Below are positions 43,601 to 64,000 of a stretch of DNA of 64,000 bases, piece by piece. A program made the position numbers and the translations under genes. The first letter of the stretch is position 1, and each line of letters starts with the position of its first letter. The notes under the pieces were generated by a model, which searched no databases, was not told the DNA's origin, and saw only the letters and a program-made list of their open reading frames with translations. Source of the stretch: Bolinopsis microptera. Taxonomy: Eukaryota > Ctenophora > Tentaculata > Lobata > Bolinopsidae. The stretch is taken from positions 8,865,460-8,929,459 of the forward strand of contig NC_087083.1 of the NCBI RefSeq assembly GCF_026151205.1, read 5' to 3'.

Positions 43601-46600
43601 TCTGAAGTGTGGGGGTGGTGTTTGTGAAAGGAGGTGCTACTTCTGATGTGGGAGGTGCTACTTCTGAAGTGGAAGTTGTTTGGGTGGGTGGAGCGCCGTG
43701 GACTCTTCTGTCGTTCTTTTCCTGAGGATTTGAGGTTACAATTTGGTGATGCTTATTATAAGTTTACAATACGCTGTTTAATGGAAGTGAATTTTCTAGA
43801 ATATTTCAACAATTTCCAATTATTAATTGTCAACTTATCATAATTGTTGATGTGCCAGCATACTCACCAAGCCAGGCATTTCATCATCTTCGTCGCTACT
43901 ATCTTCTTTTAAACTGAAAATAGATCCAGCTAAGAACGAATAACTTCAGACTCGTCACTCGTGGCCGATGCCATGACGATTGGTTTATCGATTAAAAACT
44001 CAAGATTCATGACGTTGCAGAAAAAGATGAAAAATAATGAGGTACGTTCGTGGCGCGCGCTGATGAAATTTACAGAGCGATTTCACGATCCCTTTCATCA
44101 TCAAAATGTCGCGGCGCGTTCCAAACATAAATCCGAAGCTATGAATTTTTGCCAAATTTGTTGATCCAATTTTTAGCTATTTATGGAAATTAGCAATCTG
44201 CGTTCCACTAAAATGACAGAACAAAAAATTACTACTCTTCCATAACAACAATAGATGTTAACATCTTTCTAAATTTAGTACCTCTGTTTCTTCAGTTCAT
44301 CAGCCTTCCTCACAATGTTAATCAGTTTTTTAGCTTCCAACTCTTCCTCTAGCTCCTTCTTCTTTATTGCCTCTTCTTCCTTCTTCTTCTCTACAATCTT
44401 ATCCTCTCTTTCCTGACAAAGATCCTCAATCAGAATTTAACAAGTCTATTGTAACGTTGCTATTGTCACGGCGATTAAAACACAGTGGTTGTGTTACACA
44501 GTACAATTATTAGGGAGGGACAATGCACAAGATAGAGAAAGAGAATAGAGAAACAGAATAGAGAAACATTGTTCCACATAATCTCAATAAATGTAGGGTT
44601 ACACTAGCTGTTACTAATAAGGCCGTTTTGTTCAGATGTTCAGACAATAACTATACATGTCATGAAGCCACAATTGGATAGATTTGAGATATGCCATATT
44701 ATCAAGTTTGAATGCAGACTAAATAATGACTAAATAATGGCACACTTGTGTAGTAGAAAGAAAGTAACATTGACATACTACATAGCAGAACTAAATAGTA
44801 CAACTGCCGACTTTAACTAGCTGGCTTCGTTTACAGTTTTTAGCAAAGAATAAGGACAGTGATGGAACAAGAAATGCGGCCGCTTTTTTTGTGGATGGCC
44901 GCTCAATTTCCCGATCCGTGATGGCGTATTTTATCATATTCCATACAACCTGGAGATCCCAGTTTTAACTGTTTATAAGCATGCAGATATAGCGGAGTGA
45001 CAGGCCGAGCGCCACCAAGTTAATATAATTCCATATTGAATTTGAAAATCGTGTATATATAATATGCTTATTGTTTATGCAACCTGACACCCGACAGTGA
45101 CACGGATCTGTGCAAAATAGTAATAGTAACTCAAAATAATAATAGTATGCTATCAACTAGTGCCTAGTGGGATATGTACATTGTGAAATTAATAATGTAC
45201 TTGGTCAGTTCAGCGCCGCGCGCCAACAATTATTTAATTCAGATTTGTGCGCAAAATAACTTTGCGCAGGTAGTCACGTGGGCGATAACAGTGCGCGAGG
45301 GCAGGCACGCACGGTCGGTCGCACGGTCGCAAAGCTACCATATCAAAAAAAAACCTCGATCGCTAACCCTTGTCCTTGACTCTTTTGTGCCTTCGGCACT
45401 TTGAGTCATGGATCGGGAAAAAATCACATAACAGATACAAACGAAAGACTGTAATCGTATAAAAAAGTAACTGTATCTGGATAATATCCGCTCACAGTCA
45501 CGGTAAACTATAACCGAGAGATTTTCAAATTCATATCTGACACGACATTACGTTACATCTACATATCCGGTAATAATCCTACTAACTGCAGCGATAATAT
45601 GGCAGTTTTAGAAAATCACGTACGAGTATGTTTACAATTGAGAAATAGAACAAGTGAATCAAGTCGCCATAGAGGTAATTCATGACGGCCTCGAATATGC
45701 ATATCCGATTATAATCATGCTAGATAAAATGCAATGAATTAAAGTCACGTACTCGTTTCTTGTGTCTTATCCAGGGAACCAAGTCAGGACACACAGTTTC
45801 AAGTAGATTACAAAACCCGGCCATTGCACCGTTAGCGCTGATATCTCCTAGCGCTTCCCACGCTTTCCTGGGAGAGTGGGTTACAGACAGACGGACAAAT
45901 TAATAAACAAGTAGGTTACAGAACCCGGCTAAGCACCGTTAGCGCTAATATCTCCTAGCGCTTCCCACGCTTTCCTGGGAGAGTGGGTTACAGACAGACG
46001 GACAAATTAATAAACAAGTAGGTTACAGAACCCGGCTATTGCGCCTTTAGCGCTGATATCTCCTAGCGCTTCCCACGCTTTCCTGGGAGAGTGGGTTACA
46101 GACAGACGGACAAATTGATAAACAAGTAGGTTACAGAACCCGGCCATAGCACCGTTAGCGCTGATATCTCCTAGCGCTTCCCACGCTTTCCTGGGAGAGT
46201 GGGTTACAGACAGACGGACAAATTTATAAACAAGTAGGTTACAGAACCCGGCTATAGCACCGTTAGCGCTGATATCTCCTAGCGCTTCCCACGCTTTCCT
46301 GGGAGAGTGGGTTACAGACAGACGGACAAATTAATGGACAAGTAGGTTACAGAACCCGGCTATTGCGCCTTTAGCGCTGATATCTCCTAGCGCTTCCCAC
46401 GCTTTCCTGGGAGAGTGGGTTACAGACAGACGGACAAATTGATAAACAAGTAGGTTACAGAACCCGGCCATAGCACCGTTAGCGCTGATATCTCCTAGCG
46501 CTTCCCACGCTTTCCTGGGAGAGTGGGTTACAGACAGACGGACAAATTTATAAACAAGTAGGTTACAGAACCCGGCTATAGCACCGTTAGCGCTGATATC

Positions 46601-47782
46601 TCCTAGCGCTTCCCACGCTTTCCTGGGAGAGTGGGTTACAGACAGACGGACAAATTAATGGACAAGTAGGTTACAGAACCCGGCTATTGCGCCTTTAGCG
46701 CTGATATCTCCTAGCGCTTCCCACGCTTTCCTGGGAGAGTGGGTTACAGACAGACGGACAAATTAATGGACAATCTGACAAACATACAGAGAGAAAGTCA
46801 GGTGAACATACAGTTATATTGCTCGTGATAAAGAAACTGACATACAGAAATATGGACAAACACTTAACCATAATTATACAGGACAAACACTTAACCCTAT
46901 ATAATATATAGTTTAGATGATTCTGATACAAAATTTCTTTTGATCCCGTTTATTGCGACAAGTAGGAAAATAGAGAATTTTTGTTTCTTTTTCGCAATAA
47001 ACGGGATCAATAGAAATGTTGCATCAGAATTATCACAATGATGCGACTAATAAACAATGCTCCGATCCGGATATCACACGTACAGTGTACAGTGTACAGT
47101 GTACAGTGTACAGTGTACAGTGTACAGTGTACAGTGTACAGTGTACAGTGTACAGTGTAACTTACTTTCGGTCATTTCCCACAAAGTCAAAGTAACCAGG
47201 ATTAAGTTTATCAGCATGATAGGGGCCCAGAGTTGATTGTCTGTAATATGCTGCTAACTGGTTCTTTTGGTCGTACGACAAGTTGAACTGGTGCTTCTCT
47301 GAAATGAAAAATGTAATTTATTATTTTATTAAGAAATACAGTTTGAGATTTAATTTATGAAGTTATTTTAAACGTTTAGTTGTAACGGCTTAATCGTTGC
47401 AGACTTATCAGATCTCTAGGACGTTATCTTATTATCAGATTTGTCTAAAGTTCGATAGCAAATAATTAAGATTGCAAATAGTTTTTAGGTCGTACTATAC
47501 CTGCCATAATCTAGTTGAAACTGTCCACATACTTATAAATTATATAGTTACCATTTTATTATGTAAAATGTACAAACCAAACAAGTAACACAAACAAGTA
47601 ACGAGATTTTAAATTAACAAGATTAATTAATTACTTTTAATTAACAAGATTAATTAATTAAGTTGACAATCACCTTCTTTATAGAACTCAAGAGAAAAGT
47701 TGAAGAGTTCAGGTAGGGTGAGGCCATGACGAGCTATAATGTCACGTGAGCTGTGTATGTTCAGCTGATCTAACTCAACCAT
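40666..47782 (-). CDS. ACBD3: Golgi resident protein GCP60 (acyl-CoA-binding domain protein 3)
   Basis: ACBD3 is a Golgi scaffold; in vertebrates it binds giantin through its GOLD domain and recruits PI4KB. Six exons keep phase: 47,782-47,674, 47,298-47,166, 45,867-45,753, 44,412-44,282, 43,913-43,868 and 43,721-40,666. The acyl-CoA-binding domain spans exons 1-3: LTLPELFNFSLEFYKE, then KHQFNLSYDQKNQLAAYYRQ, LGPYHADK, FDFVGNDRK, then KAWEALGDISANGAMAGFCN. Exon 4 is a Lys/Glu coiled coil. The last exon has a large Val/Glu/Ser/Pro/Ala low-complexity insert and ends in a GOLD domain (VLNVGRGETVTVRIPTYESG, LYWEFATQNYDIGFGASFEW, C-terminal VYYRVFYTR). The predicted length is about 1,196 residues, against roughly 530 in vertebrates. 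One base appears to be missing near 41,940, shifting the frame. The start ATG is the first Met after an in-frame stop. Confidence 0.94.
41270..41470. repeat. ETAPAAV coding repeat in ACBD3
   Basis: About ten 21- to 24-bp units encode AVETAPAAVETAPT on the minus strand. They lie between the frameshift and the GOLD domain. The plus-strand frame is also open here but is only an antisense shadow. Confidence 0.9.
41938..41942 (-). other. Apparent single-base deletion (frameshift) in ACBD3
   Basis: The upstream frame runs to AAPVKATRLKPLW then a stop at 41,919. The GOLD-encoding frame is open from about 41,975. On the plus strand the local repeat expects CCGGAGTAGC but reads CCGGGTAGC, so one A is missing between 41,940 and 41,941. 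Restoring one base would join the frames through the same Pro-Val-Glu-Ala pattern. It could be an assembly or sequencing error, or a real disrupted allele. I found no plausible short intron. Confidence 0.75.
42385..42990. repeat. 24-bp coding minisatellite (VEEVSPAA) in ACBD3
   Basis: About two dozen copies of a 24-bp unit encode VEEVSPAA, with PDA and EKV variants, on the minus strand. The copies are nearly identical at the DNA level, indicating recent expansion or homogenisation. The period is a multiple of three, so the protein frame survives and antisense frames also stay open. Confidence 0.95.
44413..45752. other. ACBD3 intron 3
   Basis: A long intron between the end of the acyl-CoA-binding domain and the coiled-coil exon. 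It contains a small inverted repeat around AAATGCGGCCGC...GGCCGCTCAATTTC (44,872-44,910) and a GC-rich CGCCGCGCGCC stretch near 45,213. No coding exon seen. Confidence 0.55.
45808..46775. repeat. 108-bp array carrying nine copies of an ACBD3 splice acceptor and exon edge
   Basis: Each about 108-bp unit, read on the minus strand, has CCCACTCTCCCAG (acceptor) followed by about 60 bp encoding KAWEALGDISANGAMAGFCN and LL. The copy nearest exon 4 (45,867-45,753) continues into ETVCPDLVPWIRHKKR and a GTACGT donor. The other eight diverge after CTACTTG into a filler (TTTATTAATTTGTCC), where the frame meets TAA. Units differ by only a few bases. Confidence 0.93.
46918..47032. mobile_element. Foldback MITE in ACBD3 intron 2
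   Basis: Two about 40-bp inverted arms (TTGATCCCGTTTATTGCG in the left arm, its complement in the right arm) enclose about 34 bp. The arms differ at about four positions. A short related stretch (ATCCCGTTTATTGC) occurs at 58,022. Confidence 0.8.
47083..47159. repeat. 7-bp repeat (GTACAGT)n beside ACBD3 exon 2
   Basis: About eleven copies of GTACAGT end six bases before the exon 2 donor (GTAAGT, minus strand). The array therefore starts immediately downstream of the 5' splice site. Confidence 0.9.
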
Positions 47783-48887
47783 ATTGTCAAGTGTACTGTC
47801 ACGTGTTATGTCACGTGATCTGTTTGGAGAAGTCTGCTTCAATCAGCTCTCAAGTTGTTCTGAGTCTGATCATTCTAATTTTAGAAATATTTAGATTAGA
47901 TCGTGTATAGTCTTAAACCTTGTTGGATGAATAATTAATTATTAACTATAATATTAATAATTAATTATCGTCATGAACAATTAATAAATAATAATAGTAA
48001 TTCCTCAGTGTATAACTTGACACTTTTGATACTTCGAGAGTCAATAATCTATATATATATAATGTAGCAAGTAAGTACAATGTGATTATTATGCTAGTAC
48101 AATCGCCAGGAATTAATAATGCATGATGATCCCTCGCAACACCTGGAATATTGTCCGACTCTGACATAGTAACCTTTTAGTATTCAAGAAACTGGCTAAC
48201 AGACCTTTCTGAAGAAAATGACGAATACAATTAAGTGAAAGTGAAAGTGAAAGTGAAAGTGAAACTAGACCACTCCGTGGAGATCAAAGAGAATTGTTCA
48301 TGAAAAATTACATTGTATATTCACAAAAATTGGCGTAAACTGCTGGACAGTTCCTTCTTTAAATGATAAAGTCAATTATCAAATGTTTTTTCTATTTTGG
48401 ACACTGCACTCGGCTGCACTCAAGTTGAAATAACTTTGTAACCTAACCTAGTATTGACAAACATGAATAATCAAATTGATAAAATATATTATTAAATTAT
48501 ATTATCAAATTATTAATCTGTTACCAACGGCTAACCTAAAAACGTTGTGGTTAAATAATAGATGTTTTCTTATTTAGTCAAGTAAAAATGTGCACCCGAA
48601 TAAAGGCTAAATCTAAAGATCTATCATTATTTAGATGTGAGATTAATGAGAATAGTTTTAAATCTCCTAAATTTTACAGATACAACTTTTCTTAAAGATT
48701 ATACAATGGCTGTATTAGGGCACCCTGAAAAAGCTGAACAAAATTTGAAATTAAACGCATTATCTTGGACTAACTGCAATTACTAATTAACTAATTGCAA
48801 TTACTAATTAACTAATTGCAATCTGCTGTCTCTGTGTTAAAACAAAAACATCACATAAGCCCCACATATAGCGATACAATCTCCAAT

Positions 48888-51248
48888 TTACGCCATGAAG
48901 ACAACAAAGATAATGAAAAAGACAATCAGGATCCCAAAAACTTTGAACATAAGCCATCTGTTTGAAGAGATACTTTGGAAATATTTGAGGAGTTCCGAGT
49001 GGGCCGCATCCACGTTCGTTTGGATGTCTGTCACGTTGGTATCCAGCAGTGATATCGTCTCGCCTGCAAGAGGTCATCATTAAAAAGTCATTAATAATCA
49101 TTAACAGGTGATTAACAAGTCATTAACAAGTTATAACACGTGATTAAAATACGTTATTAACACGTGATGTGATATAGCAACTTTCTTCAGCCAAAATTTT
49201 TACTGGAAAGCAGTAATGCTTTACCCATAATAGTGAAAATTCCAGTTATCTTCATTTCATTCTAGGAAAACGAAAAGTGTAGCAGATATCTCTAATTACA
49301 AATAATTACAGACGACTATAATTATTTAATTAATAGTAATTACCCTGATTAGCGATCATCTGCGAGAGTCTGCCCATCATCGAACCAAGTTCCTCTATTT
49401 TACTGTAAATCGTCTTAATGTTCCTTTCTCGTTCCTAAACGTAACACGTGTCAAGTATCACGTGTTATTTGTCACGTGTCACGTATCATGTGTCACGTGT
49501 CATGTAACACAAGTTAAGTGAGTTGTAAAGTTAAGTGAAATGTGAAATTAGATGTGTAACTAAGGTAGTTGGTACAGATAATATTATAAACATCCAGGTT
49601 GCTCGTATCGTTTAATTCAAGTTTAATTCAAGTTCAAATTAAGCTGGAACTTTGCCAAATAACTGGTTATTATCCTATGTCAGAACGTTGTGTAGTTTTA
49701 AACCTGATACTTATGTTAAAGAACAACAAGAAGACCTCATTTAAAGCTCGCACTAGTAGTTATGCTCGGGCTGTGTATTGAACAGTAGTTATGTGTTTAA
49801 ATGGTTACGGAGTGGGCCACTTGATATGTGAACGATCCCTTCAAAATTAACTTATTTAATGACAGGTATTATAATTAAAACGAAACTTACAATATAAAAC
49901 GGAACTACAAAGCAACAGGAAAGGTAGACTCCCTCAAGTCTTACCTAACTGTAATAATATTGAATCAATTAATTAATTAATCCAATTACCTGAAGATAAG
50001 TGTCCTGATTATCAATAAGAGATAGCTGCTGATTCTGATCCATACCACTAAAATCTAACATGGTGTCACGTGAGCTATTGCCCTGCTCTGATTGGAGCAA
50101 CAGACTCTGTTCTGGGAACCCATCTCCTGGGTACGCGCTCGATATCGAACCCGAACTGCGAGGAGATATAAGAGGTGAAAATTCCAGATTATTATTATAA
50201 AATCATTGTGTTCATTTTCATTTTTTGATAAGCTGTCTTTTCTTTGACAGGATTCGATTGCTTGCAAGCTGCTTCACTTTAATGTGCATTAACTTTCAAA
50301 AATATGGGTATTTCATTTTATCAAATTGGCATATCGTGGGAATCTGTTTAATAACCAACTAACTAACCTGAATTAAATAATTTAATTTAATTAATCAGAT
50401 AACTCAACAAACTAGCTAACCTGAACTGATCTCTCCTCTGTTTCTGCTCCTTTAATTAACTAATTAACCTAATTAACTAATTAACTAACTAACCTGAACT
50501 GATCTCTCCTCTGTTTCTGCTCCTTTAATTAACTAATTAACCTAATTAACTAATTAACTTACTAACCTGAACTGATCTCTCCTCTGTTTCTGTTCCTTAA
50601 TGCTCTCAGTCCGACTAACCAACACCTCCTTAAAGTCCATGGTTATATGAGCCAGCTGACTCTGCAACGAAACTACAACAGAGTTAGAATGTTGAGAGAC
50701 CTGTAGGTTAACTTGCACTGCACTGTTCTTAGAAAACGCTTGTAACTCACTGATCATCCTGTCCAATCCTGATAAATTATTAATTTTCAAACAATGTGTA
50801 CTGAACATAAGCAATGGTCATTGTCCAGCTGTAAGGTTGGACACCCCCAAAATAACAAAACCGATACAACAATTGCAATAAAAACGGTAGAAATTTGTAA
50901 AAACAAGGGTATAAAATAAAACCCTTAAATATAATAAAAAATCAGCTTAAAATAAAATTCCCCAAATTCACCTGACAAATCCTCGTTGATAATCTCAGTA
51001 AGTTGGTTTATCTCCGTGCTCCGGTCCTCAAACAGTGACTTATTACTGACCAACATGGCTAGCTTCTCCAGCTTTTCACACGTATTAGCAATGTTACGAC
51101 CAATAGTCCCTGCTACTTTATTAAACTGACTCCGAGTGGGAGGCGCTGCAACCACCGCATTGTTCTGCTTAACGTAGGCTCCAGCTATGCGCGACTGTCG
51201 CGCCTGGACAATACTGCGGTACTCTAAAGTTCTCTCTCGACACGTCAT
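48888..51248 (-). CDS. STX5: Syntaxin-5 (Golgi Qa-SNARE)
   Basis: Syntaxin-5 is the Qa-SNARE for ER-Golgi and intra-Golgi fusion. Five exons keep phase: 51,248-50,972, 50,768-50,567, 50,155-49,990, 49,434-49,344 and 49,063-48,888, giving 303 residues, close to the short vertebrate form. It begins MTCRERTLEYRSIVQARQSR, followed by the N-terminal helical domain (FNKVAGTIGRNIANTCEKLE, LVSNKSLFEDRSTEINQLT). The SNARE motif spans exons 3-5 (QQLSLIDNQDTYLQERERNI, then EELGSMMGRLSQMIANQGET, then NVDAAHSELLKYFQSISSNR), with the zero-layer Gln in MIANQGE. A C-terminal anchor follows (LMFKVFGILIVFFIIFVVFM, then A). The frame is open upstream of the Met to about 51,435 without another ATG, so a longer isoform from an upstream exon is possible. 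The exon 2 donor is copied downstream. Confidence 0.96.
50413..50612. repeat. Three copies of the STX5 exon 2 donor and exon edge
   Basis: The block CTAACCTGAACTGATCTCTC, then CTCTGTTTCTGCTCC, occurs at about 50,415, 50,489 and 50,562, spaced 73-74 bp. On the minus strand each copy is the exon 2 end (encoding KEQKQRRDQF) with its GTTAGT donor. Only the copy at 50,567 is attached to the exon; the other two lie in the intron with AT-rich filler (TTAATTAACTAATTAACC). Confidence 0.9.
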
Positions 51249-51981: not shown

Positions 51982-52767
51982 CTAAAGTTCTTCTGTATGT
52001 TGATGATCACTGGCAATATAATGGTGATCTTTGATGAAACCTGTAATTGCCTTGGCTCGAAGGAAATTCACAAAAAGGTTTTGATCATTGGAGTTTAGCT
52101 TTCTTGGTTCCGATGTTGTCCATTCCTTTGTCCAAAGACGGAATCCTAGAAAAGTTTGGTCTTCACTGTGGTGTAATTCTCGGTCAGCCATTTTGAATTT
52201 GAGATTGTAAAATGCCAGAGCAATATCTATTTTATCGGACCCGACCTTTTTTGTAGTAACAACCCAATACCAAACATTGCTTTCCTCTCCAACATTAAAG
52301 ACAAACTCATTCTTATCTGATTCGTAAGCGTCGATATGTATTCCAAGGAGAATCTCATCGATAAATGTGCCGGGAAGCTTGTTTGATGCAGCGATTGTTC
52401 TCATTACGATCTCAAATTTATCCAACGGAATTCCTTTCAAAACCCGATTACCATGATTTTCATTGTACATTTCAAACTCCATTCCATTCATTGCCTCTTT
52501 TGCTTGGGTTAGATCGGTAACTATTGTCTCTGTGTCGAAACCGTCTACCAAGGCCTTGGCAACATCAACAACAGGAAAAAAACTGAAATTCCAAATTTGA
52601 TCAATACCAATATCTACAAGACGTTTGACGAACGTTTTCAATTGACTCATATATCCAGTTTCCTCCTCATGATTATCAAATTGGCCTTTTTTTTGTTTTC
52701 TCGATTTAGATGCACAAACCACGATGAGGAGCAGAATAATGAGAAGGGTACGATAGCAACTAATCAT
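51982..52767 (-). CDS. Secreted protein, family paralogue 1
   Basis: I do not recognise this family. The 261-residue product starts MISCYRTLLIILLLIVVCAS, a clear signal peptide, then a charged linker and a helix-rich N-terminal part (VDVAKALVDG). The core blocks shared with its three neighbours are: FEMYNENHGNRVLKGIPLDK; MRTIAASNKLPGTFIDEILL; EFVFNVGEESNVWYWVVTTK; KIDIALAFYNLKFKMADREL; GFRLWTKEWTTSEPRKLN; and NFLRAKAITGF. It reads as a single exon. There are no cysteines in the shared blocks and no transmembrane helix beyond the signal. It is probably a secreted or lumenal protein of unknown role. It is the most complete copy along with paralogue 4. Confidence 0.8.
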   Translation of the reverse strand: MISCYRTLLIILLLIVVCASKSRKQKKGQFDNHEEETGYMSQLKTFVKRLVDIGIDQIWNFSFFPVVDVAKALVDGFDTETIVTDLTQAKEAMNGMEFEMYNENHGNRVLKGIPLDKFEIVMRTIAASNKLPGTFIDEILLGIHIDAYESDKNEFVFNVGEESNVWYWVVTTKKVGSDKIDIALAFYNLKFKMADRELHHSEDQTFLGFRLWTKEWTTSEPRKLNSNDQNLFVNFLRAKAITGFIKDHHYIASDHQHTEEL

Positions 52768-54147
52768 TCCTTGGAGCAAATCAATGGTTAACAAAATTTC
52801 AATTAATTTTTCACATATTATATGTGAACGATCCCTAACTCGTAGCTCTGAGATAGCCTAATTGTTATGATAAGTGCTCACAAAATTACTGGCAATGAAA
52901 ATACAATAAAAGAGAAGTGTAAACTCACATGTCATGAAATTGAACTTTAAGGATAATAACAATATCGATTAAAAAAAATGCAAAGATGAATAGAACGTAG
53001 AGGTGAAATTTATAAGAAACATAATATAATACAAATTGTTGGTCTTTTTCCATATTCCATCAGTGGATCTAATAAGCCTCATAATATATGGAAGCATTGA
53101 ACTTTTGAAACTTTTCAACGCTATTATATAATAACACTACGTAATATCTATCAAAAAATTTGAGTATCAACTAGTAACATTCTAATTTTCCTCTGTAATT
53201 GCTATTGAAACGACAACTTTGAATAAACGAAATATTTTGTTATATATTTAATAATAGTGTTGAAAGTATTAAAACAAAAATAGTTAGAGTATCATTATAA
53301 TTTTAGGCTGTTGTCGTCATCTTATATATCCTTTGAAAATAGCCTTCTTAATTACATGGGAACACGTCAAGTACTGTAAAGACTAATTATAGCACTATGA
53401 AATAGTAGCAATACCAGAATGTTATGATAATATATTTAAATACTGGTTAACAGACTAGTAATATATAATATATAGTTAATATACTTAATTAATATAATAC
53501 AAATTTTTGGTCTATATAGCACTATAAAATAGTAGCAATACCAGAATGTTATAATAATAATATGTTTAAATTCAACGTCAATAACTTATCAAACTGTCTT
53601 AAAGTTATGCGTCAATCCTGTTCTCTAGTAAATGAAGCTGTCGATAATATTTCTGTGGAAGTGTCACTGGTAAGTGGTACTGGTAGTTGTGATTGTAAAC
53701 TGTCTGCAACTCAATCACTAACGAAATGAAACTTGTAATAATTACTTGAAACTTGGCTGAGTGACAATAAATTAAATAGCTTACTGAACAGCTATTTGTA
53801 CGAGCGTGTAAGTAGGGATTTACGACATAATTCTAATAGTAAGGTTTATTTAATTAATTTCACTAAATTAATCAATTATTTCTCAAGTGACAATAAACAT
53901 GGGATAGGAAACTATTGTTCACATAAATACAAATTATCTTAAACAATTTATGTAGAAATAAACACTAAAAAGAAATCTTAGAAACTCAAATTAAAGATAA
54001 AATAATGCCCACTTAAAAACATCAATTCATACAAGAAACTATAAAGATTAAAATCAACTTAAAAAGTACTAAAATACGCCAGTCTTCATAAATGGGGAAT
54101 AACCGCAACCTACGTCCTGCTTACACCGTTTCGACCCATTTTAATCA
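52768..54147. other. Spacer between paralogues 1 and 2
   Basis: AT-rich sequence without coding exons. A block of about 60 bp (AGCACTATGAAATAGTAGCA, then ATACCAGAATGTTAT) is duplicated at 53,391 and 53,517. Confidence 0.55.
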
Positions 54148-54970
54148 TCAGTGTTCACCATCATCAGAAGACTGTGTCAGCTGTTGATAATTTGGATACT
54201 TTTTCACAAAACCAGAAACCGCCTTGAATTGTAGATATTTAGTGAAGTGCTCCTGATCCCCACTGTTAAGTTTACGTGGTTCAGATGATGTCCACCTGTT
54301 TGTCCACAGCTTTACCCCAAGAGCCCAAGAAACCGCTTAACCTCAGAATGATGACGTATTCTATCAGCAAGCTTGAAGTTAAGATTGTAGAATGCCACAG
54401 CTAAATCAATTTTGTTGTCCCCACTTTTAGCGGTAGTAGCAATACAGTACCACCCACTGGTTACGTCGCCCACATTAAACTTAAACTCGCTTTGCTGTGA
54501 TTCGTTTGACTCTGTACCTTTGCCGAGAGAAATCGCCTGTAAAAAACTGGCTGGTAATCCTGTAGCACTGGCAACTAACGACATATACTCCTCGAACTCA
54601 TCCTGAGCAATACCCGTGAGGATCATATTGGTTTGTTTCTCTTCAAATTTATCAAATTCTTGTCCGTGCACTGCTTCAGTAGCAGCGGTTACATCTTTGA
54701 CAGTTATTTCATCTGAGTCTATAGCTGTAGATACTAGTAGTTTTGCCACATCCACAATAGGCTTTAAGTGGTGACGACTTTCGTCCATATGTGTCCACCT
54801 ACCACGTCTAGAACTAGATCTAATATTTCTCTAGCTGTTCCAAAATTTTTGAGTCCGAAAAATCCGCTTTCTTCGTCTTGAATGTCTTCATTATTTTCGG
54901 AATATTCAGAATTAGAATTACATACCCACAGCAATATTAGAAGGTTGAAGAGCAGTGATAAGCCCTTCAT
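54148..54970 (-). pseudogene. Secreted protein, family paralogue 2 (two frameshifts)
   Basis: It starts MKGLSLLFNLLILLWVCNSN (signal peptide), with an acceptor-like TTTTCGCAG about 20 bp before the ATG. The frame breaks twice relative to its relatives. Near 54,775 it passes from VVGGHIWTKVV to LKPIVDVAKLLVS. Near 54,320 it passes from SEVKRFLG to LGVKLWTNRWTSSEPRKLNS. It then runs to a stop at 54,148 after FTKYLQFKAVSGFVKKYPNY. All family blocks are present, including EFKFNVGDVTSGWYCIATTA and KIDLAVAFYNLNFKLADRIR. It could be a young pseudogene or a functional gene with two sequence errors; no short intron explains the shifts. Confidence 0.75.
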
Positions 54971-55189
54971 TTTTCATTTCCAATCTGCGAAAAAATGGAT
55001 TAAAAAAGTCATTTATAAGATTTATATAGATAGTAGAATATGGTTTTCTTTATTGTAAGAATTTCTTATTATGATGAAGACAATATTGAATTTTAAATTT
55101 TGGATACAGTTGTTTGAAGAAAAGTAGATACACAATTCAACATTGCACATTAATGAATATAAAATATGAATGATTTTTGATATATAATA

Positions 55190-55950
55190 CAGGGTGGGCC
55201 AAAAGTCAGTACCCATACGTTGGCCTTTATAGCTCAGTCACTGAGTGCCCAATTTAAATACTTCTTTCTGGTATGACTTAGTACCACCACTGGTTCGAGG
55301 AATTTGTCAACTCGAAAAATATTCGCGTTCATTTTTTTCAAACGGAGGTTCATTTTCACATTTATTTGATAGTTTAGATAGTCGGATCAAGCTAAATGTT
55401 ATTGAATTGTGTTTGGCCATTCGAATTACGTTTGTCCTGAAAGAATTAGAACTGTAGCTTCTCAGATGACCGAGATATGAAGCATAACGAGTTTATTCAT
55501 TACGTGTGATCAGGTGATTGGTTTACCTAATCACGTGATAAGGTCCCCCGTTAACTACCCCGTTAAACATTATGGGAATTGTTAAGGGTGCCCAATTAAG
55601 GTGTCGTGTCACATAATCACCCAGTCAATTTTGTTAACGAGATACAGAAAATGCTTGATAACTTCGTCATTTCTAATCCGTTTTGCCTCATATTTTCAGA
55701 TCATATATGCAACATTTGATAATCTACCGTCTCTGAAAAAAATTAGGCGTTCAGCATGTTCAGAGAAAACAATATAGGTGTTTTAATATTGAATGGGCGT
55801 GGTCTAAAATATTCGAATTTTCAAATTTTGACGACGGAATCCTCGAACCAGTAAATACAGTATGCCATCTGCAAAGCAACAGCTCTCAAATATAAAACAC
55901 GGCGGAGCTATTAAGGCCAACGTATGGGTACTGACTTTTGGCCCACCCTG
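55190..55950. mobile_element. Mariner-like MITE
   Basis: 761 bp with long inverted ends. The left end begins CAGGGTGGGCCAAAAGTCAG and the symmetry continues through TACCCATACGTTGGCCTT. TA lies at both outer flanks (55,188-55,189 and 55,951-55,952), the target choice of the Tc1/mariner superfamily, and the CAGGGTGGGCCAAAAGT end is typical of mariner relatives. No transposase is seen. Part of its interior recurs at 22,105-22,165. Confidence 0.88.
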
Positions 55951-56409
55951 TATAATGGGTACAAATTTATACTTCTATAAATATAAGAAATAGTAAATGT
56001 TTTACAAAATGAAACTTATCAAAAGCATTCAAAATTTTAAACAAAGAAATAACAACTTTTAAAAAAGGAAGTCTGTCGTTAAAATTATACGAAATATATA
56101 ATGTAAAAAAAGAAGTATACACAACCCCATCATCTTTCTAGTTTAAGGTATAATTATAATGTACAAAAAATAAAAACTGTATTATACATCATCATCCCAC
56201 TACAGAAATAATTGTTAAATTTCTGGTTTTATGCGAAAACAATTTATAAACCACAGCCGGTTTCTTGATAATAATAAATGATGCTTTAACATTATCTAGA
56301 TAAATTTAAAAATAAAATCTCCACTTACAACATCTTCGTTGATGTTAGTTACCATAGTTACCATGGTTACCATAGTTACCATAGTTGCCATAGTTACTAT
56401 GACAACCAA
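55951..56409. other. Spacer with X-box-like repeats
   Basis: AT-rich sequence 3' of paralogue 3. At 56,345-56,405 there are five short repeats (AGTTACCATAGTTACCATGG), ending just before the paralogue 3 stop codon. Confidence 0.6.
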
Positions 56410-56982
56410 TCACATCTCATCGTGTGGACCACGTGACGCATCCTCAGCAAGATGAGGATACTCCTCAACGAAACCAGCAATGGCTTTAAGTCGCAGAAAC
56501 TTGTCAAAAATCTCCTTTTCGTTCTTATATCTAAAAACTCTATCAGATAAACCGAAGTTCATGCCATATACCGCTATAGCAATATCAATAGTATCAGGAC
56601 TATTCTTAACTGTAGCCACAGTGTAGTATTTCACAGTACTGTACTTTCCCACTCGACGAACAAACTCCTTTCCTTGAGTTTTACTCATTTTAGAATCTTT
56701 CCCTGCCATTATATCCAGTATAAAGGGTTCAGCAAAGCCGTGGTTGCTTGCAATCTTCCGGACATATCCATCTAACTCCTCCGCAAGCATTCCCTCTTTT
56801 AGATAATTAGCATTCTTTTCATCAAATGTTCTTCCTTTTATTCCATCGTTTATTACTTTTAAATCGGAGGGCTCCGTTGGTGGGTCAATGAGAGCTTTAC
56901 TAACGTCAACTACTTCCTCTTCAGTTGAGCAGATAACTAGTAGAGATAGTACGAGCAGTGAGGAGGTACATGGACAAACCAT
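56410..56982 (-). CDS. Secreted protein, short family paralogue 3
   Basis: The 190-residue product starts MVCPCTSSLLVLSLLVICST (signal peptide). The ATG directly follows TTTTTCAG, as in paralogue 4, suggesting a 5' UTR intron whose acceptor abuts the start codon. It lacks two segments present in paralogues 1, 2 and 4: the N-terminal helical linker and the LWTxxWTTSEPRKL block. Conserved parts are VVDVSKALIDPP, YLKEGMLAEELDGYVRKIAS, STVKYYTVATVKNS, TIDIAIAVYGMNFGLSDRVF and FLRLKAIAGFVEEYPHLAED. A second acceptor-plus-ATG copy lies 84 bp upstream and is in frame. Function unknown. Confidence 0.78.
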   Translation of the reverse strand: MVCPCTSSLLVLSLLVICSTEEEVVDVSKALIDPPTEPSDLKVINDGIKGRTFDEKNANYLKEGMLAEELDGYVRKIASNHGFAEPFILDIMAGKDSKMSKTQGKEFVRRVGKYSTVKYYTVATVKNSPDTIDIAIAVYGMNFGLSDRVFRYKNEKEIFDKFLRLKAIAGFVEEYPHLAEDASRGPHDEM

Positions 56983-57065
56983 CTGAAAAATGTTATGAAT
57001 TAAATCTAGTGGAGTAATTATATTAAAGTCATTATTGTAACGGTATATTAGAACCAGACGAACCA

Positions 57066-57520
57066 TCTGAAAGATTGAATGAGAATTATTCTATCGAGTC
57101 TGGACTATACGGAATACTATCGATATAATCATATAATTTTCATAACTTCAAAGTAAGGTATAAATAATGCAATAATTGAGGATGTGTTATAGTAAGCAGT
57201 TATACTGTAAGTGCTAACTAAACTGACCCACATGGTATGCAAAGAAGAATTAATATCCGGTGATATGATGAGCTGTAATAATTAAATTATTAATATTAAC
57301 ACCAATAAAGATTTCCATACAATGAAAAGTAACAAATAACAAGCTTTGATATAACCAATTCAAGCGTAAACTCCAAAGTGGCATAGGACTTAGGAGTCAC
57401 AATCTTAAACATTAGACATGGAAGATGGTGAGCTATATTTGCTTTGACACGTGACAGAGAATATTTATTTCGATTCGCCAATGTTGAGAGCTGGTTGGTA
57501 AAATGATGTCGACGAAATAT
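57066..57520. promoter_or_regulatory. Upstream region of paralogue 3, homologous to that of paralogue 4
   Basis: Blocks such as CAAAGTGGCATAGGACTTAG at 57,375 and TTTGACACGTGAC at 57,442 correspond to CAAAGTGGCTTAACAATCAG (59,371) and repeated TTTGACACGTGAC (59,447-59,523) upstream of paralogue 4. The shared order (TATGCAAA block, CAAAGTGGC block, E-box) indicates that the duplication included a promoter or first non-coding exon. Assignment as regulatory is inference. Confidence 0.5.
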
Positions 57521-57900
57521 GGTTCACAACCTCGAACAGTATCCATTGATAAAATTCAATTTAATTCAAAACAAAAAATTTTACAAAAAATAACAAATTT
57601 CAGCCGAGGTAAAAAATTTATACAACCCCAGCATATTCTGTGATCTATCTGATAAAAGCTATAAAGATATTGTTACAAAGAATAAAAGCTTTGGTATTTA
57701 AATACCATAACTATAGTTCACAATCTCGAACAGTATTCATTAATAACATTTAGTTTAATTCAAAACAAAAAATTTTACAAAATATATAACAAATTTCAGC
57801 AGAGGTAAAAAATTTATACAACCCCAGCATCTATGATCTATCTGATAAAAGCTATTAAGATATTGTTACAAAGAATAAAAGCTATGGTATTTTTAAAATT
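57505..57900. repeat. Two tandem copies of an about 190-bp block
   Basis: AATTCAAAACAAAAAATTTT, then ACAACCCCAGCAT and ATCTATCTGATAAAAGCTAT recur at 57,525-57,700 and 57,715-57,895 with about 90% identity by eye. The pair lies between paralogues 3 and 4. Confidence 0.85.
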
Positions 57901-58214
57901 ACTCTACGACAAATCTGACAAATTGCAGCCGATATACAAGCTCTAACACTCCCCAGATGCTTAAATATCGGCTGAATAATAAATAAAACTAAAGATAAAA
58001 AGGTTTTCAGTACTACACAGTATCCCGTTTATTGCTGGAGACGATGCTTCGTGCTTTGAGAAAAGTTCAGCGGGTAGCATAACATTTTGGGCAGATAGGA
58101 TTCATATCAGTTTGTTCACAAAAAATGTGGATGTGCAGTTAGAATTGCTCTTGTGTAGGCAGCAAGGTTACCAGGTTAAGGTTTTTTCTATCAATACCAT
58201 GCTTTTAAATTAAA

Positions 58215-58961
58215 TCACATTTCATCATGAGACTTATCCGGAAGGGCGAGATGAGGATACTGCTCGATGTAGCCATGAATTGCTCGTTGTTGCAAAAACT
58301 TGAAGAAAATATCTTGATCATCGGTTGTCAGTTTTCGAGGCTCGTAGGTGGTGTGATGTCTGGTTCCCCATGGGATAAATCCCAGCAAGGTTTGTTGCTC
58401 AGAATGGCGAAAGACTCTGTCCGCTATTTTGAAATTCAAGCTATAAATTGCCATTGCAAAATTGATTTTATTTTCTCCATTTTTTGCTGTAGCAACGATG
58501 CAGTATTTCACTGTGCTGTCCTTTTCAATGCCAAAAAGAAACTCTTTTCGGTTAGACTGATTTAAATTGGAACTTTTGCCTAAAGTGACTTCAAGTATGA
58601 ATTTCTCAGGAAGACCATGAGCAAATGCTATAGCACGAAAATATTCATCAAATTCCTTAATCGGCATGCCCTCTTTTAAAATATTGTTGGTCTCTTCATC
58701 AAATTTGTCGAATTCAAACCCTCTGATTCTATCGTTTATTGATGTCAAATCAGTTGTTTTAACTGTCGAAGCAACAAGAGCTCTGCCCACATCAACTGCT
58801 TCGTCATAGGAGTTTAGAGAAGCCAGGAGCTTATCATAAAAATAAGTTGCCAATTTTGAAAACCAGCCAAAATCTTCTTTTTGATTGTTTGGATCTGATG
58901 TAGAGACAACCAAAGGAGAAACTGTCAGGATGAGCAATATCGAAATACATAAACGAACCAT
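58215..58961 (-). CDS. Secreted protein, family paralogue 4
   Basis: A 248-residue product starting MVRLCISILLILTVSPLVVS (signal peptide); the ATG sits directly after TTTTTCAG, an acceptor-like sequence. Family blocks in order: AVDVGRALVASTV; FDKFDEETNNILKEGMPIKE; FDEYFRAIAFAHGLPEKFIL; EFLFGIEKDSTVKYCIVATA; KINFAMAIYSLNFKIADRVF; RHSEQQTLLGFIPWG; TTYEPRKLTTDDQDIFFKFL; IHGYIEQYPHLALPDKSHDE. The end of the protein (HDEM) is shared with paralogue 3. Upstream lie several TTTGACACGTGAC motifs. No characterised domain is recognised, and I see no basis for assigning an activity. Confidence 0.82.
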   Translation of the reverse strand: MVRLCISILLILTVSPLVVSTSDPNNQKEDFGWFSKLATYFYDKLLASLNSYDEAVDVGRALVASTVKTTDLTSINDRIRGFEFDKFDEETNNILKEGMPIKEFDEYFRAIAFAHGLPEKFILEVTLGKSSNLNQSNRKEFLFGIEKDSTVKYCIVATAKNGENKINFAMAIYSLNFKIADRVFRHSEQQTLLGFIPWGTRHHTTYEPRKLTTDDQDIFFKFLQQRAIHGYIEQYPHLALPDKSHDEM

Positions 58962-59948
58962 CTGAAAAATTGAACGGAAATTATTTTCTTGAGAAGAGAT
59001 TCAATCTTAAGCAATTTTTAAAACATTAAGCTTTAAGTTTTTTAAATACAAAATAACAGCCAATAACTTGACAATATTTTAGGTATATAAATGGTAGAAA
59101 ATAACATGTTCGTCATCTTTAAACTTCAAAGTGATATTAAATGTATTTTCAGCTGATCCAGCACAGTATGCAAATAAGAAATACAACAAATTTGAACACA
59201 ATAAAAGTCGGTGATAGGATGAAATGTAAGGAAAAAATTACAATTAATCATGAGTAATAAATTATGAATAGCAACAAAGAAAATTAAGTACACATATACT
59301 AGAATTTTTCATACATTTAAACTAACTTTAAATATAGCTTTGAAATAACCAAAGCAACCGTACACAATCCAAAGTGGCTTAACAATCAGTCACAATATTT
59401 CTAGCAATAGATCTGGAACTGGAGGGATGGTCTAACTATATCACTTTTGACACGTGACTATATCACGTTTGACACGTGACCATATCACTTTTGACACGTG
59501 ACCATATGAGATTTGACACGTGACTAGTCACGTGGCAGTGAAAATATAGTTCACCTCCACACCAGTATCCAGACCAATAAAAGCGTAGGACGTAGGTACC
59601 TATTATGCTAAACACATAAATTCTACAAATAATAAATTTCAGGTAAAAATGGTTACTTATAAAATAAATTACTTATTTACCTGTCTAGAGCTCTATATTA
59701 TAATTTAACAAAATTCACGTGAAAATCAAAATATTATCGCCTAAAGATAAATTTCTATTTAATTTGACTAAGCTCAACATCTGCGAGCAATTACAGCTGC
59801 TCTAATCTCCTAATGGAAATTATTTGCTAGCTGGAGTATGAATGAGGCAGCAGAGATGCTGCAAGGGCGGTCGAACTATTTGATGACGTCACGTGATGTA
59901 TGATGACGTCACGTGATGTATGATGACGTCACGTGGTGTGAGATGACG
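58962..59948. promoter_or_regulatory. Upstream region of paralogue 4 with an E-box cluster
   Basis: Four TTTGACACGTGAC units spaced about 22 bp lie at 59,447-59,523 (filler CATATCACTT), followed by a further CACGTGGC. At 59,881-59,950 there are 20-bp GATGACGTCACGTGATGTAT units combining CRE and E-box; these run up to and into the stop codon of the lipase gene. The regulatory role is inferred from motif content only. Confidence 0.55.
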
Positions 59949-62900
59949 TCACGATGTAGGTGAAGACTCTGCCTCTAGGAATAACTTCAGCGTTTTTTGA
60001 TACTCATGAGGCCAATGATCAGCGATTAGTCTATGTCCAATATGTGTTCTTTGCCACTCAAAAGGCTCCTCTTGCAATACAACAGGTCTAGCCACTGAAG
60101 GTGATTTCTCACTGTTATCATCTGATGAATCTGTGGGTGAATTTGGGGATGTTTTCTCCGAGGGAGCTTGGTGGAAATCATCATCAGCATGACCAGGGTT
60201 ACCATTGCAAACCAAGCCGTTAGGTATCTGGTCTAATATTGAACATGATGGCTCATCTTCTAAGATGGTTTTATCGGACACTGTGACCTTGTCAACCCAG
60301 AGGACTTTTCCCACGTGGAAAAGGGGGCGGAATACCTGAAAATGAGAAAAACAATGAGAAAAACAATGAGAAAAACAATGAGAAAAACAATGAGAAAAAA
60401 CAATGAGAAAAACAATGAGAAAGTGAACTGTGGTGTCTAATCAAAGTCATAGGACGAATAAATTAAATCTAAAATTGATTCCGATGCATCCTGTTTTCTA
60501 TGCTATCTCTAAGAAAGATAATGAGATACTGCTATCTCTAACTATACTAACTTCTTCACTATTTTCTATGCTATCTCTAAGAAAGATAATGAGATACTGC
60601 TATCTCTAACTATACTAACTTCTTCACTATTTTCTATGCTATCTCTAAGAAAGATAATGAGATACTGCTATCTCTAACTATACTAACTTCTTCACTATTT
60701 TCTATGCTATCTCTAAGAAAGTCCTCCATTCCCACCATGAGTTTCTCCAAATGCTCAGTTTTCTTGTCTATAATCAGACTGCATCGTTCCCAGAATGATA
60801 GAGGTAACATCTCTATGTATTGTAACTGCGAGGTAACTAAATTAATTATGTAAATAAATAAAGTTAAATTTTAAACTGCAAATGTTACAGTAACGGTAAC
60901 TGTGAGAGTGTATTATATTGTGTAAATTTATATTGTTACTAAATATTCACAAAGTTCTTTCTAGTACATAATGTCATGGCATTTTCTCTTACCATAACTC
61001 TTGTCATGTTGCATATTTTAGTACTTTAATAGTACTCATGTGCCATAATAAGTATATTGTAATTTTAAGAAAGGATTATAGATGTCAGAAGCCGTACAGT
61101 TCGCTCGTAGTATGGCCCAATACACCACCGTTAATACTAATCATGTGAAACATGAGATGGTATTCTAATTACCTAAAATCACGAACTACTTAGTAAAACC
61201 TAATTCAATAAACAATTTAACAACGATAACATGTGTGTTTACACCCAATAATGATAAAAGTATGATAATAATTATGTATAATGTAATAATAATTTCACCT
61301 GCATAACAAGACAGAACATATTTGCTAGTGAAGCTCTTGGTATAATATCCATCCCGTTAATCACTGTCACCACGTGGTCGCTCCATTTATTATCGCGTTC
61401 TGAACCTAAGTTATGAGTGTTATTAGGATTAGCAGGCACGTGGTGTGACGTCATGACACGTGGTGTGACGTCACACCACGTGGTCGCTCCATTTATTATC
61501 ACGTTCTGAACCTAAGTTATGAGTGTTATTAGGATTAGCAGGCACGTGGTGTGACGTCATGGCACGTGGTGTGACGTCACACCACGTGGTCGCTCCATTT
61601 ATTATCACGTTCTGAGCCTAAGTTATGAGTGTTATTAGGATTAGCAGGCACGTGGTGTGACGTCATGGCACGTGGTGTGACGTCACACCACGTGGTCGCT
61701 CCATTTATTATCACGTTCTGAACCTAAGTTATGAGTGTTATTAGGATTAGCAGGCACGTGGTGTGACGTCATGACACGTGGTGTGACGTCACACCACGTG
61801 GTCGCTCCATTTATTATCGCGTTCTGAACCTAAGTTATGAGTGTTATTAGGATTAGCAGGCACGTGGTGTGACGTCATGGCACGTGGTGTGACGTCACAC
61901 CACGTGGTCGCTCCATTTATTATCACGTTCTGAACCTAAGTTATGAGTGTTATTAGGATTAGCAGGCACGTGGTGTGACGTCATGACACGTGGTGTGACG
62001 TCACACCACGTGGTCGCTTCATTTATTATCGCGTTCTGAACCTAAGTTATGAGTGTTATTAGGATTAGGATAAAATTTACACAGCAATGCGATACGAATA
62101 AAAAATAATTCAAAGAAGCTTCAATCTGCTGTACAGGACATTCAAATCAGTCAAAAACTGCATGTGTGGTGTTATGTGTGGTGTGTTATGTGTGTTATGT
62201 GTGTTATGTGTGTTATGTGTGTTATGTGTGTTATGTGTGTTATGTGTGTTATGTGTGTTATGTGTGTTATGTGTGGTATGTGTGTTATGTGTGTTATGTG
62301 TGGTGTGTTATGTGTGTTATGTGTGTTATGTGTGGTATGTGTGTTATGTGTGTTATGTGTGTTATGTGTGTTATGTGTGGTGTGTTATGTGTGTTATGTG
62401 TGTTATGTGTGGTGTGTTATGTGTGTTATGTGTGTTATGTGTGTTATGTGTGGTGTGTTATGTGTGTTATGTGTGTTATGTGTGTTATGTGTGTTATGTG
62501 TGTTATGTGTGGTGTGTTATGTGTGTTATGTGTGTTATGTGTGGTGTGTTATGTGTGTTATCTGTGTTATGTGTGTGGTGTTATGTGTGTTATGTGTGTT
62601 ATAATTACTGGAAATCTGGTGGTCACAATACAAGAATCTATCGCAAAACCTGATTTTCAGTTATTACCACTGATTAATTTGCTGGAAAGATCGGTATTGA
62701 TTAGAAAATGGACAATTTCTGTTGTCTCTGCCCAATGATGTGTAAACTGAACAACAACAATACCAATCAATATATGTTATATATATTATATATATATTCT
62801 GTTAGATTACAAACCGTAATAGTTGAAGACGGGCGGTGGAGCATAAGCGTAACAAGTAACCTTGCACTTTGATAGGGGGGACTCGCCCAATGTCTCTTTC

Positions 62901-64000
62901 TTAGATAGTATGTGTAATGTTAACAACACAGCAGTTCCTGAGAATTAACAATTTACAATATAATAATACATTTTAGATAATATACAATAATATAATACAT
63001 AATATATACAATAATATAATGAATAATTAGATAATAGATATGACTGATATGTCATCACTGTTCTCACAAATATCAATAAATATTGTTATAATCCCATGAT
63101 CAATGTTACAGTAGCTACAGTAGTTACATTAGTTACAGTAGTTACATTAGTTACATTAGTTACATTAGTTACATTAGTTACAGTAGTTACAGTAGTTACA
63201 GTAGTTACAGTAGTTACAGTAGTAATAGTTACAGTAGTTACAGTAGTTACAGTAGTAACAATAGTTACAGTAGTTACAGTAGTTACAATAGTTACATTAG
63301 TTACAGTAGTTACAATAGTTACATTAGTTACAGTAGTTACAATAGTTACAGTAGTTACAGTAGTTACATTAGTTACAGTAGTTACAGTAGTTACAGTAGT
63401 TACAGTATATAGACCTTCTTACCTGCGCCCAGGCTGTGTCCACAGAGCACCAGATCATATCCTGTCTGTCTGAGCATGCTCTCCAGCAGACCTTTAGTTT
63501 CGTTAAATATAGACTCCGCACCTACACTAAAGTAGTGACTAGTCACGTGTCAAACCTCATATAGTCACGTGTCAAAAGTGATATGGTCACGTGTCAAAAG
63601 TGATATGGTCACGTGTTAAATATAGACTCCGCACCTACACTAAAGGAACTGACTTAAAACAATTTCCCTCTTATTAACAGCTTACAGTGCAGAGTAAAAT
63701 AAACCTTGAGAAAATTTGGCCAAAAACGAAAATAAATAACCCCATACTTCCAACAAACACAATAGTGTAATCGTGTAAATCATGTAGTTCCTTTTCAATA
63801 TGACAGCTAAACATTATCTAACCTGATGCCATGGTGAGCCCACCCACCAGCAAACTCCTTACTCAGACACGCAATATCAGTAAACGCATCTGACAGAGTC
63901 AGAGTACCTCGTATCACCAGAACAACTGATCTTGTCTCGTCGTCTATACAGATGTAGTAGCCTGGCTTTAGAGGACTTTCTCCTATTAACTGTGTCTGGA
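59949..64000 (-). CDS. Class 3 lipase, sn1-diacylglycerol-lipase-like (3' part)
   Basis: An alpha/beta-hydrolase, probably hydrolysing diacylglycerol at a membrane. Six exons keep phase: beyond the window end to 63,823, 63,526-63,423, 62,937-62,815, 61,405-61,299, 60,825-60,688 and 60,335-59,949 (344 residues visible). In order: YYICIDDETRSVVLVIRGTL; AFTDIACLSKEF; AHHGISVGAESIFNETKGLL; LVLCGHSLGAGTAVLLTLHI, with the nucleophile Ser in GHSLG; CYAYAPPPVFNYYG; WSDHVVTVINGMDIIPRASL, likely carrying the catalytic Asp; then LQYIEMLPLSFWERC. The last exon begins VFRPLFHVGKVLWV and has a Ser/Asp-rich insert before IGHRLIADHWPHEYQKTL. The conserved order fits DAG lipases; any N-terminal membrane domain lies outside the window. 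Junctions of exons B, D and E are copied in neighbouring tandem arrays. Confidence 0.87.
60340..60422. repeat. AACAATGAGAAA repeat beside lipase exon F acceptor
   Basis: About six 13- to 14-bp units (AAAAACAATGAGAA) begin at the acceptor of exon F (CATTTTCAG on the minus strand) and so supply its polypyrimidine tract (TTTTTCTCATTGTT). Confidence 0.88.
60494..60722. repeat. 68-bp array carrying the lipase exon E donor and exon edge
   Basis: TTTTCTATGCTATCTCTAAG recurs at 60,494, 60,562, 60,630 and 60,698. On the minus strand each unit holds the end of exon E (coding FLRDSIENSEE) and a GTTAGT donor. Three full donors are present (about 60,547, 60,615, 60,683). Only the copy ending at 60,688 is attached to the rest of the exon. 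Confidence 0.9.
61365..62070. repeat. About 107-bp array carrying seven copies of the lipase exon D acceptor and exon edge
   Basis: Each unit, on the minus strand, contains CATAACTTAG (acceptor), the first about 40 bp of exon D (coding SERDNKWSDHVV), then GTGTGACGTCACACCACGTG repeats. Only the copy at 61,405 continues into the rest of the exon (TVINGMDIIPR). In the others the frame reaches TGA just after DHVV. The E-box/CRE filler (CACGTGGTGTGACGTCAT) resembles the exon's own CACGTGGTGACA. Confidence 0.93.
62161..62605. repeat. 9-bp repeat (TGTGTTATG)n
   Basis: About 440 bp of TGTGTTATG with occasional TGTGGTATG and GTGTGGTG variants, located in the lipase intron between exons C and D. The open frames (Cys/Val/Tyr/Leu-rich) are artefacts. 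Confidence 0.95.
63105..63412. repeat. 9-bp repeat (GTTACAGTA)n ending beside lipase exon B donor
   Basis: About 33 copies of GTTACAGTA, GTTACATTA or GTTACAATA. The array stops about 10 bp beyond the exon B donor (GTAAGAAGG on the minus strand). Confidence 0.94.
63502..63645. repeat. Duplicated lipase exon B acceptor with E-box satellite between
   Basis: TTAAATATAGACTCCGCACC, then TACACTAAAG occurs at 63,503-63,532 (real exon B edge) and again at 63,618-63,647. Between them lie three units of GTCACGTGTCAAAAGTGATA, then TGG. These match, in reverse orientation, the satellite upstream of paralogue 4 (59,447-59,523). Confidence 0.9.

Follow-up and report, generated by a model that had tools for sequence, protein, structure and literature searches.

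Mirage-like tandem arrays duplicate splice sites and exon edges in three adjacent genes of the ctenophore Bolinopsis microptera

Tandem arrays called mirages have been reported in amphioxus in Adh3, troponin C, the globins BflGb6 and BflGb9, and PGBD5 (PMC3087553; PMC3902484, which adds PGBD5 and troponin C). Their units are described as ~10-160 bp long and as lying at both 5' and 3' sites, with splice signals copied in many units and the messenger RNA (mRNA) apparently spliced normally (PMC3087553, PMC3902484). In human segmental duplications, internal tandem repeats are reported to include minisatellite expansions at exon-intron boundaries, with a mean unit of ~30 bp (PMC2812944), and in the Rogers model, which both PMC3087553 and PMC2812944 cite, introns are gained when an AG/GT site is duplicated in tandem. 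Here we analyse a stretch of 64,000 nucleotides (hereafter the window; C12:8,865,460-8,929,459) from the 264.65-Mb assembly of the ctenophore Bolinopsis microptera, in which repeats in three adjacent genes, an ACBD3-like gene, STX5 and a class-3 lipase gene, duplicate a real splice site together with the adjoining exon edge. These arrays closely match amphioxus mirages apart from the animal, and therefore represent an already-named phenomenon in a distant phylum; the original prediction, made from the sequence of the window, knew of no standard description of the pattern, which the published accounts of mirages supply.

Arrays were called with Tandem Repeats Finder, and exons were rebuilt through the exact spelling of public NCBI B. 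microptera proteins (STX5 and lipase). The genes and their six repeats are as follows.

45753..45867, minus strand: exon 3 of the ACBD3-like gene, end of the ACBP domain (profile match and relative P0071)
45800..46767, minus strand: acceptor of ACBD3-like exon 3 in nine copies, 108-bp unit, 51-73 bp of exon edge (Tandem Repeats Finder and sequence)
51248-50972, 50768-50567, 50155-49990, 49434-49344 and 49063-48891, minus strand: the STX5 exons (exact match to P0001)
50567..50768, minus strand: exon 2 of STX5 (exact match to P0001)
50410..50598, minus strand: donor of STX5 exon 2 in three copies, 73-bp unit x2.6, 34 bp of exon edge (Tandem Repeats Finder and P0001)
59952..64000, minus strand: lipase gene, last six of eleven exons; the first five lie at 65024-66751, past the window end
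60494..60721, minus strand: donor of lipase exon E in three copies plus a partial unit, 68 bp x3.4, 34 bp of exon edge (Tandem Repeats Finder and P0109)
61368..62068, minus strand: acceptor of lipase exon D in seven copies, 106 bp x6.6, 41 bp of exon edge (Tandem Repeats Finder and P0109)
63502..63645, minus strand: acceptor of lipase exon B in two copies, exact 31-bp direct repeat with 25 bp of exon (sequence and P0109)
63984..64631 (63984..64000 in the window), minus strand: acceptor array of lipase exon A, 46 bp x14.1, 12 bp of exon (Tandem Repeats Finder and P0109)

The gene models differ in their basis. Five minus-strand exons with GT-AG introns spell the STX5 protein P0001 (303 aa, NCBI B. 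microptera) exactly, as eleven exons from 66751 to 59952 do for the lipase P0109 (559 aa, LOC134824154, class-3 lipase domain PF01764). In the ACBD3-like gene, the ACBP profile ends at position 53 in one exon and restarts at 54 in the next, the second half being a weak match (E 0.11), and the fused relative P0071 carries FVGNDRKKAWEALG over the exon 3 junction. We read this gene as ending in KKQRY and a stop codon, and noticed no GOLD domain in our own reading of it; the name ACBD3-like is therefore used loosely.

Each unit carries one splice site, and the whole exon joins the exon-proximal copy alone. The real ACBD3-like acceptor has its first exon base at 45867 and is preceded by eight decoys in steps of 107-108 bp, the copies showing a three-unit pattern. 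STX5 exon 2 ends at 50567, with decoys at 50494 and 50421. Lipase exon E ends at 60688, and exon D begins at 61405 with CACGTG/GACGTCA minisatellite filler inside its units; the decoys of both were also found by tblastn. Lipase exon B begins at 63526, with a decoy 113 bp upstream and just 6 bp of intron common to the two copies, which flank a 22-bp CACGTG minisatellite (63540-63620), so that the working acceptor now has a minisatellite upstream. The exon A array holds six decoys with the exact acceptor motif, and its addition brings the affected edges of the lipase gene to four of 20. Adjoining units are identical in lipase E but not in the arrays of the ACBD3-like gene, STX5 and lipase D; identities between neighbours were 0.94-1.0, except for 0.80 at one ACBD3-like step that holds a one-base shift. 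Tandem exon duplication was considered and ruled out, the decoy units being without the rest of the exon and without a second splice site.

The five sites listed in the original prediction are all real, and their exon edges measure 25-73 bp. Tandem Repeats Finder recovers the four that are head-to-tail arrays; lipase exon B, visible in the sequence as a two-copy case, is not such an array but a direct repeat around a minisatellite. The list of affected edges had also missed the array of lipase exon A. That only one copy per array connects to the full exon stands. The accompanying statement that extra copies run into an early stop holds for half of the ACBD3-like decoys, four of eight stopping after 17-27 codons, but the other four stay open for 63-99 codons through adjoining units.

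The public proteins tell which copy is used: in both STX5 (5 exons) and the lipase (11 exons) it is the exon-proximal one every time. A second 303-aa STX5 protein, P0002, has the same exon 2 junction as P0001; it comes from a contig of 1,227 bp, too short for the 2.36-kb STX5 gene, and is thus presumably derived from mRNA.

Edge-spanning arrays recur in this genome. We sampled twenty 10-kb stretches in even steps along C12 (200 kb), where arrays of period 40-250 make up 7.5% of the sequence, against 6.6% of the window; window and sample together hold 38 such arrays after merging. Among 15 arrays inspected outside the window (13 by way of open frames, plus L011 and L024), only that of L024 straddles an identifiable exon. 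This array (L024 4571-4991, 163 bp x2.6) copies the donor of an exon that matches Pfam SCAI (E 4e-15). A whole-genome SCAI profile search returned two C12 loci, with extra copies of profile positions 60-75 at one of them only (E up to 1). The 33-bp exon-donor sequence is present in three mismatch-free copies at C12:13,804,609-13,804,964 and in a single copy with one mismatch in the paralogue (C12:13,644,716), one locus thus having three donors and the other one. The two loci (C12 13.644-13.651 and 13.802-13.805 Mb) lie in opposite orientation ~160 kb apart and are 81% alike over the aligned stretch. Milder cases are a kinesin donor, with 8 bp of exon and a 21-43-bp unit, and the acceptor of an EMC3-like gene, with 3 bp of exon and a 38-bp unit; the EMC3 label is our presumption, three pieces of the gene having matched no Pfam family. 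The claim that donors (STX5 exon 2, lipase E and SCAI) as well as acceptors (ACBD3-like exon 3 and lipase A, B and D) are involved, in unrelated genes and with unrelated units, is thus borne out, and extends beyond the window.

Other searches added no clear further case. In L011, an array (56 bp x23.5) repeats CAG|GTTAGA, the closing letters of an open frame without a Pfam match, and was not counted. A genome-wide Cpn60/CCT profile search (45 rows) gave no clear extra exon-edge copy, by a method that is blind to short edges; at C1:17,367,756-17,368,233, adjoining Cpn60/CCT hits overlap by 33 profile positions and contain stops in both, which could reflect intron read-through or an extra exon-edge copy. 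In a kinesin search (E 1e-3), overlapping neighbour hits on C7 (L034), the only ones resolved, proved to be intron read-through and no second exon copy. An exon finder based on codon scores and trained on the window genes was too weak, missing the ACBD3-like and lipase D exons. Many long open frames in the C12 sample resemble transposons, and a possible kinase piece in the window (37204-37368), which matched no clear Pfam family, was not used.

We think it likely that these repeats are mirages in the amphioxus sense, that is, minisatellite-like tandem duplications over one exon-intron boundary, produced by ordinary local duplication and unequal exchange and tolerated since splicing takes the exon-proximal site. 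A segment of 46-163 bp that spans an intron end and the exon edge next to it would undergo tandem duplication, with slippage or microhomology-mediated end joining as the probable cause; filler from the CACGTG/GACGTCA minisatellite sequence of the genome would sometimes enter the unit; and the array would then expand and be partly homogenised through unequal exchange, to which the three-unit pattern of the ACBD3-like copies and the presence of identical copies point. Splicing would select the exon-proximal copy, as exon definition predicts, and the gene would survive because the whole exon is joined to that copy only and splicing picks it. We infer selective neutrality of the extra copies, as we do the repair pathway, the unequal exchange and the part played by exon definition.

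Short words were found at or near unit junctions, with no comparison to chance: TTG in the ACBD3-like array (exon and distal intron), CACGTGGTG in lipase D and GATAG in SCAI. In the lipase E unit a 12-bp word occurs in both exon edge and intron, and no junction word could be established for STX5, lipase A or lipase B. Such words would fit a microhomology-mediated duplication and are not proof of it. Filler with the CACGTG word is present in lipase B, lipase D and SCAI. Outside tandem arrays, in the window and the 200-kb sample, CACGTGAC is over-represented 13.9x and TCACGTGA 9.0x, and both words occur in many minisatellites.

A more far-reaching explanation is that exon edges are a real hotspot, where breaks, slippage or template switching cluster, for instance at steps in base composition, R-loops or nucleosome borders, and where arrays of any unit length are born. 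The three window genes speak for it. In a random-placement test, each founding unit was moved to random positions within the spans of the three genes, and positions that were purely exonic or took in more than one edge were excluded; all six long units straddle a single edge, versus 1.30 or 1.16 expected depending on the overlap asked (P 7e-5 or 3e-5). This count takes lipase B as a 115-bp unit, though only 31 bp are duplicated (6 bp of them intron), and without it 5/5 straddle, with P 2e-4 or 1e-4 from the same table; a wholly intronic row of 41-bp period at 62169-62602 was not counted, its period being taken for a multiple of a 9-bp unit. When arrays of all periods lying wholly in introns of the three genes are considered, 9/14 end within 20 bp of an edge versus 1.99 expected (0/5000 permutations), one of the nine being the lipase B minisatellite, so that lipase B enters more than one test. 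Counted in this crowding are short-unit arrays of 9, 7 and 12 bp at 63105-63407, 47080-47159 and 60341-60422, which end 15, 6 and 5 bp from an exon of the lipase or ACBD3-like gene. An inclusive test, allowing an exon overlap of up to 75 bp, gave 14/19 arrays touching or straddling an edge versus 7.57 (P 0.001); at a limit of 10 bp the figures were 10 versus 6.78 (P 0.085), and at 30 bp 14 versus 8.36 (P 0.004). Separately, a 20-bp array x3.7 (TGATGACGTCACGTGATGTA) at 59881-59953 spans the stop codon of the lipase gene and extends into its final coding bases.

Chance alone is thereby rejected for the window genes against the random-placement null, with the caveat that these genes were picked for the pattern, and the random-placement and near-edge tests therefore overstate it. 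We also considered five other genes with 21 introns (SCAI, L034, L035, the EMC3-like gene and PTH2, the last in the window and four outside), which are not a random set: SCAI entered through its array, L034 through overlapping profile hits, L035 for its compactness, and the EMC3-like gene and PTH2 through open frames. Homology and GT/AG phase guided the manual placement of their exon edges, with profile matches backing kinesin, SCAI and PTH2. Three of their nine arrays straddle an edge, and among the confined ones 2/6 lie within 20 bp versus 0.77 expected (P 0.14, Tandem Repeats Finder score 50), or 3/12 versus 1.26 at score 36 (P 0.10). These values lean in the direction of a hotspot without reaching significance, and the inclusive test gave 5/9 versus 4.25 (P 0.39), 3 versus 3.91 at 10 bp (P 0.90) and 6 versus 4.59 at 30 bp (P 0.19). 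The original argument that coincidence is unlikely is supported in the window genes, where the null is exceeded; the five others have no significant excess.

Nor are edges the most duplicated bases. When duplication is scored per base (a copy within 1.5 kb at an identity of at least 83%), 5/34 edges are duplicated versus 290/763 intron points, or 3/28 versus 181/525 in complex sequence, the count of intron points being raised by array bodies themselves. The Cpn60/CCT search, blind to short edges and with one ambiguous pair of hits, gave no clear extra exon-edge copy and likewise speaks against a hotspot. Slippage or break repair focused on exon edges, as first proposed, is accordingly not shown, and a preference for edges is suggested only. 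It seems doubtful to us that breakage or copying errors concentrate at exon borders, and we hold it similarly improbable that borders are the favoured birthplaces of arrays of every unit length, mirages being what can be seen of a process directed at borders, by which splice sites are constantly duplicated; were this true, such a process could supply intron gain and shifts of exon ends.

Some points weigh against our explanation by ordinary duplication and tolerance. Random placement with tolerance does not explain the 6/6 straddling units, the 9/14 near-edge arrays and the 14/19 of the inclusive test, if these are general. Moreover, site use is read from the public proteins, and decoys may be used at a low level; these proteins speak for STX5 and the lipase and not for the ACBD3-like gene with its nine acceptors.

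A regulatory role, in which the copies are retained because, as decoy sites, they adjust splicing or the amount of transcript, had been raised from the start and strikes us as very unlikely. The listed copies do retain intact AG or GT sites, and in humans a change of splicing is reported for tandem repeats located at exon-intron boundaries (PMC2812944). Against this, the exon-proximal site is the one used in the public proteins of STX5 and the lipase, the unit sequences are unrelated, one SCAI paralogue is without copies, and amphioxus mirages are reported to leave splicing undisturbed (PMC3087553, PMC3902484). That the copies are errors of repeat assembly is the least credible reading of all: tandem repeats are hard to assemble, one amphioxus mirage was apparently misassembled in the draft genome (PMC3087553) and the lipase E units are identical, but units next to each other are not the same in the arrays of the ACBD3-like gene, STX5 and lipase D, a span of 19 kb holds five arrays plus a two-copy repeat, each with its own unit, and the sister SCAI locus has one copy in the same assembly. 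The copy numbers of the arrays may still be wrong.

Other repeats and genes were observed nearby or in the sample. Upstream of the SCAI exon, a stretch of ~170 bp (L024 ~5111-5284, minus strand) matches at least 38 other genomic places at 83-87%, with 40 of the 569 candidates scored. It carries a GGTTCGAACTC box, which we take to be a motif of short interspersed elements (SINEs) derived from tRNA, and thus looks like such a SINE. In the window, four similar long minus-strand open frames (52.0, 54.3, 56.4 and 58.2 kb, within 51982-59000), with starts that resemble signal peptides by eye, form a tandem family that is probably secreted. Between secreted-protein genes, at 55190-55950, lies an element of 761 bp whose inverted ends, 45 bp long, differ by one mismatch; it looks like a DNA transposon or a miniature inverted-repeat transposable element. 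Finally, a 77-bp satellite (103.6 copies, 97%) occupies L006 1-7976 and ends inside that stretch.

A literature search found by title no ctenophore report of such arrays, which tests their absence from print only weakly, and two ctenophore genome papers, in the portions available, contained nothing relevant on tandem repeats, satellites or introns. A possible link to ctenophore chromatin-loop anchors was dropped, the accessible part of that paper (PMC12221973) neither spelling out the GC-rich motif nor containing the word 'tandem'. With the present arrays, the record of mirages extends beyond a single chordate lineage to a ctenophore, which points to separate origins or to a broader process so far overlooked. 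An exon preceded by nine near-identical acceptors, or followed by three near-identical donors, also offers a natural experiment on how splice sites are chosen: since the sites are almost alike, their position must matter. In addition, such arrays show at an early stage what may be a source of new introns and of shifted exon boundaries.

As in amphioxus mirages, minisatellite-like tandem units lie over one intron-exon boundary and include the splice site and the exon edge, in five arrays here (12-73 bp of exon), and donors and acceptors are both affected; lipase B fits the description in a limited way, its two copies sharing no more than 6 bp of intron. The host is a ctenophore and not a cephalochordate, a difference that concerns the reported cases and not the definition. 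Further differences are the four affected edges in one lipase gene and the CACGTG/GACGTCA filler in some units. Amphioxus mirages are also reported to show haplotype polymorphism and somatic instability, whereas here we have one assembly, in which the three SCAI copies versus one are the nearest substitute. Another amphioxus trait is a homogenisation of inner units within a cluster that is less marked in the boundary units; the observations that bear on it here are the three-unit pattern of the ACBD3-like copies, the identical 33-bp SCAI copies and the identities between neighbouring units. The human repeats likewise represent minisatellite expansion at an exon-intron boundary, but are reported to alter splicing and to form introns in recent paralogues (PMC2812944), while the known ctenophore products ignore the copies. 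With the Rogers model, our arrays share a tandem duplication across a splice-site motif. Intron gain by that route requires the duplicated copies to provide donor and acceptor inside an exon; each ctenophore unit, by contrast, has either a donor or an acceptor and sits where an intron already present meets its exon.

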